Shown here one piece after another: positions 2,161-35,293 of a stretch of 35,293 nucleotides of DNA. The notes under the pieces were generated by a model, which was not told where the DNA came from, did no database searches, and worked only from the letters and a program-made list of their open reading frames with translations. Numbering within the stretch: the stretch's first letter is position 1; each line of letters opens with the position of its first letter. The translations under genes and the position numbers were made by a program. The DNA is taken from positions 1 to 35,293 of the IMG/VR virus record IMGVR_UViG_3300030329_000267; one strand, written 5' to 3'. This DNA is from a virus.

Positions 2161-3290
2161 ATGGCTAATTATTATGGATTTACAGGAGATGTCACACAGA
2201 AATCTGATGTTGATGTTTTCGTGCCTGAGCTAGATTTATGGCGTTTTCATAGGTAACTATGATTATTATTATTGAGGAATTAAGCGGGAAACCTAAGTGC
2301 AAAAGCATAAGGCAATCCGAACCGAAGGCTGTACTAAGTACAGTCAGGGGCAGAGCATAGCTGGTGAAAAGATATAATCCAGCCACGAGTCCTCAACTAC
2401 TTACTAAGTAGAAAAGATATGCCGATACTCCGTAGAAATGCGGAGATGTGAGATAAAAAACTCACTATAACATTTGATGGGCAGATGGTGTTTACAGATA
2501 TTTTGAGAAGGCATTAGTTTTAAAACCCTTTTTTGATGACTATTCAAGTTTAGTTCAAGGGCGTGGCGATGTCTTACACATTCCTACGGTTCAGGAAGTC
2601 TCTAGTGCTGATAAATCTGCAAATACAGCAGTTGAATACACAGCTAATGTGGAAACAGATATTGATCTAGCGATTGATCAACACGTGTACTCAGCTAAGT
2701 TGTTTGAGGACATAGCAATGGCGCAAAGTAATGAACAGCTTTTCGACAAATACACACAAAGTATGGCGTATGCTCTTGCTAAAGCTGTGGATACTAAAAT
2801 TGAAGCACTTCTTCAAACGATAGGAACAACACAAACATTAGCGGCTGACAATTCTATGTCAAATGCAGATGTTGAAACAGCATTAGGTACATTAATGTCT
2901 AATGATATTCCTGCTGATGAATGTGCTTTCTTTGTAAATCCACTTATCTATGCTGATTTACTTAACTCTAAAGCCTTTGTTACTAATAATTCTGGAGCAG
3001 GAGTTGGTTTTGGTAATGATAATGCTGTTATGCAGACTGGTCAAGTTGGAAGCCTTTTCGGTATTCCAGTTATGACAAGTTCTTTGATACCTACTACAAC
3101 AAGTACAGGAATTGAAGCGGCTTATCTAGTGCATAAAAGCGCTATAGCGGTAGCAGTTCAGCAAGATATTCGAGTACAAAGTGAATATGATGTATCATAT
3201 CTCGGCACAAAGGTAGTCGCCGATATAATCTACGGTGCAGTTATCACTACTTCAAATCATGTTAAAGGAATTGAGTTTCTTAATCCTTAA
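2161..3290 (+). CDS. Major capsid protein, intron-interrupted: join(2161..2231, 2477..3290)
   Basis: Exon 1 (2161-2231) encodes 23 codons plus two bases. Exon 2 starts at 2477. Joined, they give 294 residues reading VPEL-WADGVYRYFEKALVLKP across the junction. That matches the conserved PEIWS-type N-terminal motif of a common phage coat family with the HK97-like fold. Without splicing, exon 1 reads into the intron and stops at 2254-2256 after 31 residues. Exon 2 upstream of 2649 is open back to the splice site and has no good start of its own, so ATG 2649 is an internal Met. The coat protein builds the capsid shell. AAGGAG upstream of 2161 is a good ribosome binding site. A diverged second copy starts at 35150. 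Confidence 0.88.
2227..2304 (+). repeat. 78-bp exact repeat, left copy
   Basis: Bases 2227-2304 are identical to the last 78 bases of the window (35216-35293). The repeat covers the last 5 bases of MCP exon 1 and the first 73 bases of the intron. The base just before it differs (CCT versus CCG codon), and the exon upstream is diverged. Confidence 0.95.
2232..2476 (+). ncRNA. Group I self-splicing intron within the MCP gene
   Basis: A hand fold gives a complete core. P1: exon GAGCU (2227-2231) with GGC and following U residues at 2240-2246, one bulge, U2231.G2240 at the splice site. P2: 2247-2252/2257-2262 with a GUAA loop. P3: UUGAGGA 2272-2278/UCCUCAA 2390-2396. P4 and P5 lie in 2284-2319 (CGGG/UCCG, CCU...GG). 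P6a: CUGUAC/GUACAG. P7: GCAUA 2355-2359/UAUGC 2418-2422, covarying from the usual R and S elements. An extra stem is GCUGG 2360-2364/CCAGC 2379-2383. P8: 2397-2402/2406-2411. P9: 2428-2432/2441-2445. P9.2: 2448-2452/2461-2465. The intron ends in G2476. Exon 2 AUGGG can pair with 2235-2239 as P10. It has no ORF. The extra stem between P7 and P3' suggests subgroup IA. Confidence 0.9.
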
Positions 3291-24875: not shown

Positions 24876-25018
24876 TGATTAAAAACGGAATAAGATGGAT
24901 GATTAGTTTTTATACTGAGTTGCTGTATTCAAATAAAATAAAAGTTGCAGGTTCAGCGCATAACAGGTTAAGGGAACTGCAGTTAAAGTATATTGATGAA
25001 AAAAAATCAAAAAACTAA
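24875..25018 (+). CDS. Small basic protein (47 aa)
   Basis: Starts in a TGATG overlap with the SSB-like gene. Contains IRWMISFYTELLYSNKIKVA and NRLRELQLKYIDEKKS, mostly helical. It overlaps the HNH gene start by 23 bases in another frame. No family recognised. Confidence 0.5.
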   Translation: MIKNGIRWMISFYTELLYSNKIKVAGSAHNRLRELQLKYIDEKKSKN

Positions 25019-25352
25019 ACTTAATAAATTAGTTAGGGAATATATCATCCTTAGAGATAAATGTTGCTTGAGGTGTGGAAAAACTCAAAATCTTCATGCC
25101 TCACACATTTATCCAAGAGGAAAATACCCTAAAATGGCTTTTGATGTTAATAATGTAAAAGCCTTGTGTTTAGGTTGTCACTTATACTGGTGGCATAAAC
25201 ACCCTATAGAGGCTAAGGAGTGGGCAGAAAAAACATTAGGTAAGGTAAGGTTAAGGCAATTAAAAAAACAAGCAAATACAATAAATAAAAACAAATTAGA
25301 TTATCAAATAATTAAAAATGAATTAGAAAAAAAAATAGGAGAATTAGAATGA
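24996..25352 (+). CDS. HNH-type nuclease, NinG-like
   Basis: 118 residues from ATG 24996. CLRCGK (Cys24, Cys27), LHASHIYPRG (His34, His37), NNVKALCLGCH (Asn53, Cys58, Cys61, His62) follow the order of an HNH fold with a structural zinc, as in NinG-type recombination proteins and many phage HNH enzymes. The tail is a Lys-rich coiled coil. It may resolve recombination intermediates, or could act as a freestanding homing nuclease. It overlaps the GIY-YIG gene by four bases. Confidence 0.7.
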   Translation: MKKNQKTKLNKLVREYIILRDKCCLRCGKTQNLHASHIYPRGKYPKMAFDVNNVKALCLGCHLYWWHKHPIEAKEWAEKTLGKVRLRQLKKQANTINKNKLDYQIIKNELEKKIGELE

Positions 25353-25810
25353 ATAATTATTTAAGCACGCCTCATTATCAAATTGATTTATTAAGAGAGG
25401 ATGCCAGAAAAACATATAAAGAGTTTATAAAAATTCATAATGAGTTTAGGTCTTTAAGACTAAATGTTGCTGAGATAAAAGAGTGGGCTGAATATGAGCT
25501 TACTAAATTATATGAAATTCCTCAAGAATATGAACTAGATAGTAAGTATGAATGTCACATATACTTTATAAGATGTTTAGATTCTGTCAAAATTGGTTAT
25601 AGTAAAAACCCTAGAATGAGACTATCAGCATTACAAACAGCTAATCCAAACAAATTAGAATTATTATACTCATTCCCCTCTTTTAAACATAGGGAAGAAA
25701 CAATACACGAAGATTTGAAACATCTTAGAAAAAGTGGCGAATGGTTTAAATATAATGATGAAGTAGATGAATATATAAAAACAATAAAAAAGGAGGAAAA
25801 AAATGGCTAA
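25349..25810 (+). CDS. GIY-YIG superfamily nuclease, T5orf172-like
   Basis: 153 residues. A helical N-terminus (to about 65), then the nuclease-like core: HIYFIRC (70-76), VKIGYSKNPRMRLSALQ (80-96, Arg91), His120, and SGEWFKY (129-135). This order matches the T5orf172/MUG113 branch of GIY-YIG, in which IYFI and KIGYS replace the GIY and YIG motifs. Activity is likely but the target is unknown. Paired with the HNH gene upstream. Confidence 0.75.
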   Translation: MNNYLSTPHYQIDLLREDARKTYKEFIKIHNEFRSLRLNVAEIKEWAEYELTKLYEIPQEYELDSKYECHIYFIRCLDSVKIGYSKNPRMRLSALQTANPNKLELLYSFPSFKHREETIHEDLKHLRKSGEWFKYNDEVDEYIKTIKKEEKNG

Positions 25811-31992: not shown

Positions 31993-33344
31993 TGTATAAT
32001 TTTGGCAGATCAGCAAATAGAGTTGTTATCCCTGAAATGTCTGAGACTATTGTTTTAGATAGTGTAAAAGATGCTTATAAAGGATACTTAGAGAAAGAAG
32101 ATACAACTATAATGGAGTCACTTGATTTTTATTATAATCAAAATTTAGATAGACATTTAGAACAGTGGTTTGCTAGTGATAGTTTACAACAAGTCCCTCC
32201 ATTTATTCAATCTTGTGTCCCTAGATTTGCCAAGGCAAGAATGATGCTTTACAAAGAACCTCCACAAAGATTTTTAGCTGGTGAGATTAATCAAGATTAT
32301 AATGATCTAGCTTATAAATTAAATTCTAATACTAAAGAATTTGCTGAATTAACATGGCTGTTAGGGTGTTGTTGGTTCAAATCTCGTTATAATGAAAGAA
32401 AAAACAGATTGGAGTATGAAGTATTGCCTAATGTAAAAGAGTATTATTTTTATGGAGAAACAGAGCCATACGGTTATAGCTATGAAATAGAGGGAAACGC
32501 TACCGATAAAAGATATGTGTTTTGGTCTGAGGACAGAGATGGGATGCAAGGGATGCACTTTGAATTTGATGAAAAAGGAAAAAGATATTCTATTGAGTCA
32601 AATCCAGACATGGTAAATCCTTATGGAATTAATCCTATATCAAGAGCAATGTTCAGTAAAAACTCTTACGATGTAACTAGAGCCGCTTTACACATAGCAA
32701 TAGCAATGACAGAAATTGCATTAGGAACAAGATCAAGACTAGGACAGCCAGTATTTACTGGAATAGAAGAGGGGCAAAGTAAATTATCATCTGGCATTGA
32801 TAAAGCATTAATTTTGCCAGAGGGTGCAACATTTTCTTATCAATCACCAGCAGGGAGTCTTATTGAAATGATTGAAACTGCAAAGGCAATGGCTAATCAA
32901 ACAGCAGAGAACAATCAGCTTAGGATTAGATGGGGAGAATCTGGCGGAAACACACCAAGTGGAGAAGCGTTAAGAATATTAGAAATTGAAAATCTTGAAG
33001 CAAGAAAAAGTGATGAATCCCTATTTAGAGAATGGGAACATAGCAGATATGACATAGATAGAATAATACTTGAAACACATGGAGTAATTAATTTATCTGA
33101 AGATTATGCTGTTGATTTTGGTGAAGTATCTTATCCTATGTCACCACAAGAAGAAAGAGCATGGCTTGATTGGAAAATGGCAAATGGCATTATGTCTAGG
33201 AAAGATTTATTATTATATTTTAATCCAGACATGACAGATGAAGAGTTGGAAAATAAATTATCAGAAGTAGCAGAGGAAAACAGAGTACAAGCTGAGGCAA
33301 GCAAACCTACATCAACATTTCAAAGAATACTAAATGCCACCTAA
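31989..33344 (+). CDS. Portal protein
   Basis: 451 residues from ATG 31989; ATG 31992 has slightly better spacing from AGGAAG. The sequence FVSWAS-type core is not evident, but VPPFIQSCVPRFAKARMMLY, then NPYGINPISRAMFSKNSYDV and RIRWGESGGNTPSGEALRIL have the order of SPP1/HK97-like portals (an N-terminal wing, a clip and a long C-terminal stem). It is followed at once by a MuF-like gene, the usual arrangement. Residues from 336 onward align with the partial portal at the left edge. Confidence 0.82.
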   Translation: MMYNFGRSANRVVIPEMSETIVLDSVKDAYKGYLEKEDTTIMESLDFYYNQNLDRHLEQWFASDSLQQVPPFIQSCVPRFAKARMMLYKEPPQRFLAGEINQDYNDLAYKLNSNTKEFAELTWLLGCCWFKSRYNERKNRLEYEVLPNVKEYYFYGETEPYGYSYEIEGNATDKRYVFWSEDRDGMQGMHFEFDEKGKRYSIESNPDMVNPYGINPISRAMFSKNSYDVTRAALHIAIAMTEIALGTRSRLGQPVFTGIEEGQSKLSSGIDKALILPEGATFSYQSPAGSLIEMIETAKAMANQTAENNQLRIRWGESGGNTPSGEALRILEIENLEARKSDESLFREWEHSRYDIDRIILETHGVINLSEDYAVDFGEVSYPMSPQEERAWLDWKMANGIMSRKDLLLYFNPDMTDEELENKLSEVAEENRVQAEASKPTSTFQRILNAT

Positions 33345-34029
33345 GATTACACCAGCCATTGAAACTTTTATGGCTGATATTGCTTTAATGGAAAAAAAGT
33401 TTAATGCAGATTTAGCTAAATTAACAAAAAGATTGCAAGGCATGAGTGACACAGAACTGATAAGAACCATGCAAGAAGCTAATTTTTTTCAAGAAGTAAT
33501 TGATGCTGGATATGGAGATGCTTTAAATAAACTTGACGGTGAATATGCAAAAGTATTACAAGAAGCAGTAAAAGAAGCTAAGAAAAGAGGGGTTGATGTT
33601 TTAGGAACTGCAAGTATTGAGGGATTAGAAACACTCCAAGAATTAAATTATAATAGACTAATAGGCATGGGTGAAATATACGCTGATAATTTAAAAAGCC
33701 AGTTATTCCAATCTGTTTATACTGGTGGGACTCCTGCTGATATTATTGCAGGGTTAGGTGAAACCAATCTAGCTACACATCAAATGAATGTATTAGCCTA
33801 TGATAGTCTAAAAATATTTGATGATACAGCTAGATACAAAGTTTTTCAAGGACAAGATGTGAGGTGGACTTATGTTGGGCCGATTGATGATAGGACTAGG
33901 GATGCTTGTTTAAATACTGCTGGTAATGAGCCTAAAAATGGATACACAGAAAAAGAGGTTAATTCCTCTGATACTCCATTTGGCGTTAGAGGAGGTTTTA
34001 ATTGCCGACACAGTTGGATGATATTATGA
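33334..34029 (+). CDS. MuF-like minor head protein, second copy
   Basis: 231 residues, homologous along its length to 342-1031. Conserved blocks include MSDTELIRTMQEANFFQE, KIFDDTARYKVFQGQDVRWT and the C-terminal GGFNCRHSWM. Differences lie mostly in the middle. The start overlaps the portal stop and the end overlaps the next gene as ATGA, identical to the left copy. Confidence 0.8.
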   Translation: MPPKITPAIETFMADIALMEKKFNADLAKLTKRLQGMSDTELIRTMQEANFFQEVIDAGYGDALNKLDGEYAKVLQEAVKEAKKRGVDVLGTASIEGLETLQELNYNRLIGMGEIYADNLKSQLFQSVYTGGTPADIIAGLGETNLATHQMNVLAYDSLKIFDDTARYKVFQGQDVRWTYVGPIDDRTRDACLNTAGNEPKNGYTEKEVNSSDTPFGVRGGFNCRHSWMIL

Positions 34030-34490
34030 AAGCAAGGGATATACCAAAATTTAGGAAATGGGCATTACTTGGGGGCAAACTTGTTACAAGGATTGTAAAA
34101 GATGCTGGTAAGGGAATTAGTCAAGACCCAGATGGAAAACCTTTTCCAGCTTATAAAGAAAGTTACGCTAATTTAAAAAAGATAGGAAAAGCTGGAGCAA
34201 AAGGAACAGGTAAGAGCAGACAAATAAACCCTCCAGATTTAAGGCTTACTGGTGAGATGTTAAATTCAATTAAAGCACAAAAGCCAACAAATGACAGTGT
34301 TGAAATTAATTATAGATCTGGATTAAAGGTGTTAGGACATTCTAAAAAAAGAGGAAACAAAGCAAAAAGAAACATTATTGGATTAAATGACAAGAATTGG
34401 GAATTTGCTAAAGATTTTATTGCAGATGAAATAGATGATAGGATTATAAAATTTTATAAAAAAAAAGTAAAAATTGATTTAGAAATTTGA
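34026..34490 (+). CDS. Phage virion morphogenesis protein (Mu gpG-like), second copy
   Basis: 154 residues from ATG 34026, an ATGA overlap; an in-frame TTG at 34002 lies inside the MuF gene and is not needed. Aligns with 1028-1498 from the first residue (MKARDIPKFRKWALLGGKL). The basic loop differs in length and sequence, while LRLTGEMLNSIKAQKPTNDS is unchanged in protein and nearly so in DNA. Confidence 0.7.
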   Translation: MKARDIPKFRKWALLGGKLVTRIVKDAGKGISQDPDGKPFPAYKESYANLKKIGKAGAKGTGKSRQINPPDLRLTGEMLNSIKAQKPTNDSVEINYRSGLKVLGHSKKRGNKAKRNIIGLNDKNWEFAKDFIADEIDDRIIKFYKKKVKIDLEI

Positions 34491-34547
34491 CAATTTTAAA
34501 ATACTTAATAGTATTACTAAATTTTATTAACTAAAAAAGAGGACAGA

Positions 34548-35135
34548 ATGTCTGAAGATACCAATACACAGGAAGTGAAAAGTGAACCAAAGGCTTACGT
34601 TGAAAGACCATTGGTTGAAAAGCAAACATCAACAGAGATGGCAACTGATAGCCAGACTACTGACATAGAATTACCCGACTACGGTCAGTTAGTACAGGAA
34701 AGTAAAAAGTACAGAAAACGGGCGCAGGAATCTGAAGCTAGATTAGAAAAATTAAATAAAAAATTAGAATCTGATCGGCAGAAACAAATGGAAGAACAGA
34801 ACCAATGGCAACAACTAGCAGAAGAAAGGGCTGTAAAACTTGCAGAATTAGAGCCTTTAGTGGAAAAGTTTAAAAAAGAAGAAGCAGAACAAGTGGAGCA
34901 GATACTTGCAAAATTTACAGAAGAAGACAGGGAGCAATTTGGTGGATTATCTTTACCTCAACTTCGTGTCTTAGATAATAAATTAAATCAAAGTTCAACA
35001 GGTGTACCAGCAACAAGTGGAACTCCAGCCAGAGCAGTTAATCCTAATAATAAGGATTGGACTAACATGGATAAAGCAGAAAGACAGAGAAATTGGGGTG
35101 ACATTGTTAAAGGGTATGCTTTGAACAGAAAATAA
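34548..35135 (+). CDS. Capsid scaffold protein, second copy
   Basis: 195 residues, matching 1566-2150. The block IELPDYGQLVQESKKYRKRA is identical in protein and almost identical in DNA. The coiled-coil half has diverged, and the C-terminal ATSGTPARAVNPNNKDWT is conserved. The GAGGACAGA ribosome binding region is unchanged between copies although the 57-base gap upstream is not. Confidence 0.8.
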   Translation: MSEDTNTQEVKSEPKAYVERPLVEKQTSTEMATDSQTTDIELPDYGQLVQESKKYRKRAQESEARLEKLNKKLESDRQKQMEEQNQWQQLAEERAVKLAELEPLVEKFKKEEAEQVEQILAKFTEEDREQFGGLSLPQLRVLDNKLNQSSTGVPATSGTPARAVNPNNKDWTNMDKAERQRNWGDIVKGYALNRK

Positions 35136-35149
35136 CATAAGGAATAATT

Positions 35150-35293
35150 ATGGCTAATTATTATGGATTTACTGGTGATGTAACCCAGAAATCAGATATA
35201 GACGTATTTGTGCCGGAGCTAGATTTATGGCGTTTTCATAGGTAACTATGATTATTATTATTGAGGAATTAAGCGGGAAACCTAAGTGCAAAA
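35150..35293 (+). CDS. Major capsid protein, second copy, exon 1 only (cut by the window edge)
   Basis: Exon 1 is 35150-35220 and encodes the same MANYYGFTGDVTQKSD start with Ile for Val at residue 17; most differences from 2161-2231 are silent. The group I intron begins at 35221, and the window ends inside it, so exon 2 is not visible. AAGGAAT precedes the ATG. Confidence 0.85.
35221..35293 (+). ncRNA. Group I intron in the second MCP copy (5' 73 bases)
   Basis: Identical base for base to 2232-2304: the IGS, P2 with its GUAA loop, the 5' strand of P3 and the 5' side of P4/P5 are all present. The rest lies beyond the window. Confidence 0.88.

Follow-up and report, generated by a model that had tools for sequence, protein, structure and literature searches.

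A Phage Major Capsid Gene Holds a Small ORF-less Group I Intron from a Family Found at About 20 Sites

The major capsid protein (MCP) gene in IMG/VR record IMGVR_UViG_3300030329_000267 (below, the window, i.e., the whole stretch of 35,293 nt that was analyzed) is interrupted by 245 nt. Read without splicing, exon 1 (2161-2231) reaches a stop after 31 codons, and exon 2 lies in a different frame. Joining 2231 to 2477 yields a single ORF of 294 amino acids with ...VPELWADG... at the junction. This confirms the proposal of an initial annotation, made from the DNA alone, that the exons occupy separate frames and that splicing at U2231 and G2476 restores VPEL-WADG. The spliced 294-residue product matched PHROG 267 (major head protein; 1.8e-40) and Pfam Phage_capsid_4 (4.4e-8), which places it in HK97-type MCP families and bears out its earlier naming as the major capsid protein. 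Among the matches listed, cultured relatives reached at most ~28% identity in MCP; their TerL identity was no higher than 42.5%. The coding sequence is uninterrupted at the window's intron point in most of 80 relatives fetched by protein. The parts of the gene are as follows:

2161-2231, + strand: MCP exon 1, ending in G-C-U^ (from frame and splice mapping)
2232-2476, + strand: ORF-less group I intron, 245 nt (from Rfam, structure, covariation and a held-out HMM)
2477-3290, + strand: MCP exon 2, including the stop codon (from the joined ORF and Pfam)

Two other ways of reading a split gene were rejected. Programmed frameshifting fails because the frame of exon 1 runs into stops within the insert; the same stops argue against an intein, and the signature of the insert is that of an RNA rather than a protein.

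The insert can be drawn as a group I core, with the following elements (P1 supported by the fold and the guide test, all others by structure and covariation):

2229-2242, + strand: P1, exon GCU^A paired with guide UGGC, including U2231.G2240
2247-2262, + strand: P2 hairpin with a GUAA loop
2272-2278, + strand: 5' strand of P3, 7 bp (3' strand at 2390-2396)
2285-2349, + strand: P4, P5, P5a, P6 and P6a
2353-2359, + strand: 5' strand of P7, the predicted guanosine-binding helix (3' strand at 2418-2423)
2360-2383, + strand: P7.1 hairpin
2397-2411, + strand: P8 hairpin
2428-2465, + strand: P9 and P9.1 hairpins (P9.1 is the P9.2 of the initial annotation)

Every element of the full core from P1 to P9, including the covarying P7 and the 7-bp P3, was present where it had first been placed. 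In the window, P7 is GCAUA/UAUGC with a bulged A, and the last base of the intron is G2476. When this structure, drawn on the window sequence, was imposed on 35 family introns that were mutually <93% identical, its 64 pairs were formed in 96.0% of cells, whereas pairing was only 33-36% in a control in which the partners were slid by 1-3 bases. Both sides had changed in 46/64 pairs, and the observed covariation was reached in 0/500 shuffles. Across the family the two strands of P7 change together, being either GCAUA/UAUGC or GACUA/UAGUC, while two of its G-C pairs, at the predicted guanosine site, were unchanged in 35/35 introns. P7.1, a single hairpin between P7 and P3, had double changes in 5/5 pairs. 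The fold of the intron region was also more stable than 100/100 shuffles (z-score -3.1). Extra P7.1/P7.2 hairpins between P7 and P3 are a mark of subgroup IA (IA1/IA2), and on account of its P7.1 hairpin the window intron appears to be IA-like.

Profile searches gave a mixed picture. The initial annotation had suggested the Rfam group I model as a check; searched against 411 nt, this model (RF00028) did match at 2207-2445 (E = 6e-4), yet its 23.3 bits fell below the gathering score of 50, and a default Rfam scan of the whole window at the gathering threshold listed nothing. The gathering score is a curation threshold rather than a biochemical criterion. An HMM trained on 20 introns, each no more than 77% identical to that of the window, recovered 2230-2478 with E = 7.6e-65. 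No ORF was found within 2232-2476, and the structure, the covariation and the held-out HMM together uphold the original description of an ORF-less 245-nt group I intron. On these sequence grounds, we regard the identification of 2232-2476 as a group I intron of the MCP gene as settled.

The first search for relatives used a DNA pattern of the intron core that was blind to the host gene; it returned 14 contigs, with a capsid-gene match in 14/14. Two further core patterns enlarged this set to at least 290 loci, and an intron HMM run on the collected loci found at least 205 copies; these counts are lower bounds, taken from the matches listed, and nearly all of the loci are metagenomic contigs. 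Among the matches listed, 66 of 71 distinct strong copies lay in MCP or MCP-like genes: 52 in the MCP family of the window, seven in another family of MCP-like genes (PHROG 544/267), six in SU10-type MCP genes (PF17236) and one in a PHROG 9953 MCP. The other five were elsewhere or in genes without an MCP assignment. Family introns are ~210-290 nt long, with no endonuclease gene inside. Besides the window, 12 long intron-bearing records carried one to three copies each and none elsewhere in the record; 16 intron-free relatives carried no copy. In bacterial genomes the core pattern matched at least 118 stretches with no true intron among the matches listed, so that these are chance matches and give no pointer to a host.

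Two loci (L097:755-988 and L251:3248-3016) have a strong family member in a non-capsid gene, apparently that for the small terminase. The intron core has more distant relatives (~90-105 bits) at L166, L190, L201, L211 and ~30 similar loci, many of them in viral records from isolate genomes, adjoining long ORFs resembling tail tape measure genes.

To map splice points, candidate exon joins were translated and scored with an MCP profile. Among the matches listed, introns occupy ~20 positions in the MCP family of the window (site numbers come from profile alignment and are accurate to ~1 residue; labels for one site were merged), one being an N-terminal site that precedes the NFIPE motif. Exon frames were intact in all mapped intron-bearing cases. 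MCP residues beside the insertion sites had a mean identity of 0.853, versus 0.762 for random positions (HMM match columns; 0/10,000 draws), so that insertion at conserved codons, as proposed at first for the window, holds family-wide. Several MCP genes have two or three introns, and the maximum of four was found in L240 and L275 (211/240, 254, 247/245 and 258 nt). With the four taken out, an intact MCP of 288 amino acids results in each. Three of the sites are common to both genes and one is different, and in each gene there is more intron than coding sequence. At L182, L209, L234 and L238, SU10-type MCP genes contain two or three of the family's introns. In some introns of the four-intron genes, the segment from P9.1 to the 3' splice site includes additional AT-rich stretches resembling hairpins (L240, reverse strand, ~2790-2825; L275, ~1772-1801 and ~2137-2170).

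The fit between intron and exon was assessed with splice points set by the MCP HMM and the T/G ends alone, P1 pairing not being required. Exon 1 ended in G-N-U in 33/33 distinct introns. The guide base formed a Watson-Crick pair with exon position -2 in 31/33 and a U.G pair in 2/33; permuting the guide bases, with kinship among introns ignored, gave a mean of 13.1 Watson-Crick pairs and reached 31 in 0/20,000 cases. All four Watson-Crick combinations of guide base and N were represented. The P10 pairing with exon 2 described in the initial annotation was also supported: bases preceding the guide paired with exon 2 in 121/176 cases, versus 79 on permutation (kinship again ignored), and in the window P10 consists of two Watson-Crick pairs and then G.U pairs. 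Given ~20 sites and four guide combinations, chance is a very unlikely cause, though the permutations ignore relatedness. The guide and P10 matches indicate guide sequences fitted to the local exons, as working introns need. The sole introns with a U.G wobble at exon -2 are those at MCP site 75 (L087, L091 and L094), which may be newly arrived, with refitting still to come.

The ends of the contig bear on whether the split gene might have arisen in assembly or be a gene in decay. Positions 33006-35293 are a direct repeat, 74% identical, of 14-2304 (from the portal end to MCP exon 1 and the start of the intron), and the contig closes with 78 nt (35216-35293) that repeat 2227-2304 exactly. Comparison of the repeats (for the intron copy, also the HMM) adds two features:

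35150-35220, + strand: second, diverged copy of MCP exon 1
35221-35293, + strand: second copy of the intron, its first 73 nt, identical, cut by the contig end

The 74% repeat and the exact 78-nt terminal repeat suggest that the assembler fused sequence from two strains into one, probably chimeric, contig, and exons 1 and 2 of the window may thus be from different strains; a segment-by-segment comparison did not assign the exons to one strain. Given the terminal repeat, the genome size is probably ~33 kb. The diverged repeat and the contig end inside the intron are what favors an artefact. However, the same insertion occurs at the same codons in independent contigs, compensated structure and intact exon frames are found in all mapped cases, and covariation between guide and exon is not expected of artefacts. 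For the family this explanation is already refuted, and we give it next to no credence for the window.

By far the best explanation, and one that is very probably correct, is that the MCP gene carries at 2232-2476 a working group I intron, ORF-less and self-splicing, which belongs to a mobile capsid-gene family. The intron would leave the late mRNA in the usual two guanosine-initiated steps, the G-C-U^ at the end of exon 1 pairing with the guide triplet of the intron, and its excision would allow full-length coat protein to be made. That the window intron does splice is our inference. The family resides mainly in major capsid genes, at ~20 positions, and moves horizontally between distantly related phages, its guide sequences at each site matching both local exons. 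Counterpoints to this explanation are the Rfam score under the gathering threshold, the five strong copies outside identified MCP genes and the probable chimera. The initial interpretation is supported in part: the group I assignment, the exact splice points, the ORF-less body, the MCP identity and the conserved codons all stand. Its further suggestions are more speculative, namely that such a location might shield the intron from being lost and might make coat production depend on splicing. It did not notice the family or how many sites this occupies, nor the transfer from one distant phage to another, the partial second copy where the contig ends, or the probable chimera.

Evidence for movement came from several comparisons. 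At the site used in the window, the intron is 87-91% identical to its nearest relatives, whereas their MCP exons are only 36-52% identical, indicating that the intron moved between distant phages; the intron that L100 carries at this site is more distant (68% identity). No flanking exon sequence was co-transferred with the intron between distant phages. Near-identical intron-free alleles also exist (96.8-98.1% identity, gapless at the junction, in a comparison permitting up to three gap positions across the joined exons): intron-free L242 compared with L252 at both of its introns (98.1% and 97.1%), L281 with L093 at the site that the window uses (96.8% across 400 nt), and L202 with L198 (97.1%). 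In a tree of 101 introns, most sites formed their own group; sites 10, 249 and 5 had each been entered by more than one sublineage. In 5/6 independent recent jumps, taken as pairs of similar introns (≥91.5% identical) at different sites, both sites had the same G-N-U triplet, where ~0.3 would be expected for each pair; GGU^AUG is found at both site 101 and site 196, whose introns are near-identical. Together with the guide matches, these comparisons of copies and alleles show that the family is mobile and fitted to each site.

How the introns reach new sites is a separate matter. That group I introns colonize new sites through reverse splicing is a long-standing suspicion, most examples being old rDNA insertions. 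Our preferred route is reverse splicing into abundant capsid mRNA. Free intron RNA would recognize G-N-U^ and a few bases of exon 2 in that mRNA, probably the most abundant late mRNA, and insert; the RNA would then return to DNA by hypothetical reverse transcription and recombination, and retargeting would take a change of a single guide base. This route fits the pattern of retargeting, the absence of co-conversion and the preference for capsid mRNA, but it does need a way back to DNA. That endonuclease-free introns transpose within and between phage MCP genes by such RNA-guided reverse splicing is a tentative proposal, possible but short of probable.

The standard alternative is DNA homing by a free-standing, trans-acting endonuclease, unrecognized or lost, that cuts conserved sites of intron-free capsid genes, with new sites arising from rare illegitimate events. 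This would account for introns of one site mostly clustering on the tree, for insertion at conserved residues and for the existence of close intron-free alleles, and T4-like phages are known to have endonucleases that serve ORF-less introns in trans (PMC3984707). We searched for such a partner among the GIY-YIG, HNH_3, HNH and MUG113 families. GIY-YIG was found in 1/49 and HNH_3 in 0/49 intron-bearing records, revealing no common partner; an HNH gene was present both with and without introns, showing no association, and enrichment of neighboring ORFs gave no partner either. The T5orf172/MUG113 gene of the window was not above the cut-off in 28 related records. Because many of the records are fragments, the missing partner is weak negative evidence. 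Also against homing are the absence of flanking exon sequence carried between distant phages and the difficulty of explaining ~20 sites by one site-specific endonuclease. We hold homing, too, to be conceivable at less than even likelihood. In the window itself, an ORF at 24993-25352 with an HNH domain (match at 25065-25181) adjoins the T5orf172/MUG113 ORF at 25349-25810.

It might also be argued that the intron is kept as a regulator, its splicing efficiency timing coat synthesis or limiting it to late infection or a particular cell state. In favor of this, the capsid gene is a late gene whose dosage is critical, and introns have been proposed as molecular switches (PMC11878797). However, close relatives lack the intron, its site and number vary freely, and in two intron-blind, protein-fetched MCP samples it was present in only 5/80 and 6/80 loci, which looks more like a mobile element that phages tolerate than a regulator that they need. 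We consider a regulatory role improbable.

The initial annotation had called a coat gene a less usual site for an intron. That has to be qualified, since phage capsid introns were already known (LittleE, Tuc2009 and crAss-like phages; PMC3706429, PMC7886860). Mycobacteriophage LittleE (Cluster J) has an intron in its MCP gene that is most likely group I, with, as here, exon 1 ending in U and the intron in G; its splicing was shown by RT-PCR and protein sequencing, and related sequence is also present in a tail gene (PMC3706429). It differs in being a single intron of ~819 bp with an endonuclease ORF, with no multi-site family described (PMC3706429). Lactococcal phage Tuc2009, likened by its description in that source alone, is a single case of a capsid-gene intron (PMC3706429). 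crAss-like Zeta/Delta phages also have group I introns in the MCP gene, which in one Zeta phage is in five fragments, with intron-type domains in 3/4 of the intervening segments (PMC7886860). Those introns were found via endonuclease domains, in large gut phages whose PolB and other genes also carry introns (PMC7886860), whereas the introns described here are ORF-less and the contigs, where long, are ~32-37 kb. The Jug huge gut phages resemble our family in having many short group I introns per genome (~206 nt on average), splicing of 37 of the 76 checked being backed by metatranscriptomes; they differ in their 360-402 kb genomes, with introns over many genes and hundreds of stand-alone endonucleases (PMC12363816). 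Fungal nuclear rDNA introns likewise occupy many sites in the same genes, and reverse splicing has been proposed for them, but they lie in eukaryotic rRNA genes rather than phage protein-coding genes (PMC1299323).

The nearest matches in named phages are in Aeromonas phages AhC3_1 and PS1, where about two thirds of the intron aligns at ~70% identity and the family HMM gives ~102 bits. These differ in being jumbo phages in which the match lies in the RNA polymerase gene and carries no intron annotation; the unannotated intron-like sequence splits that gene (L291:2459-2672 and L292:2426-2675). The word capsid is absent from a 2025 study of Bastillevirinae introns (PMC11878797), and we found no description in the open-licence literature of an endonuclease-free intron family over ~20 capsid-gene sites. 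Thus, while single phage capsid introns are known, an enzyme-free family spread over one gene appears to be undescribed.

With ~20 sites, intron-free alleles at 97-98% identity and a one-base guide rule, the route of transposition becomes directly testable. Some capsid genes of marine phages will have been mis-annotated as broken or short ORFs. Ribozymes of ~245 nt may also be compact splicing tools, if splicing is efficient enough for a phage's most abundant protein. The virus of the window is a marine virus of bacteria, and the intron family that it carries may reveal how such elements move without an enzyme of their own.
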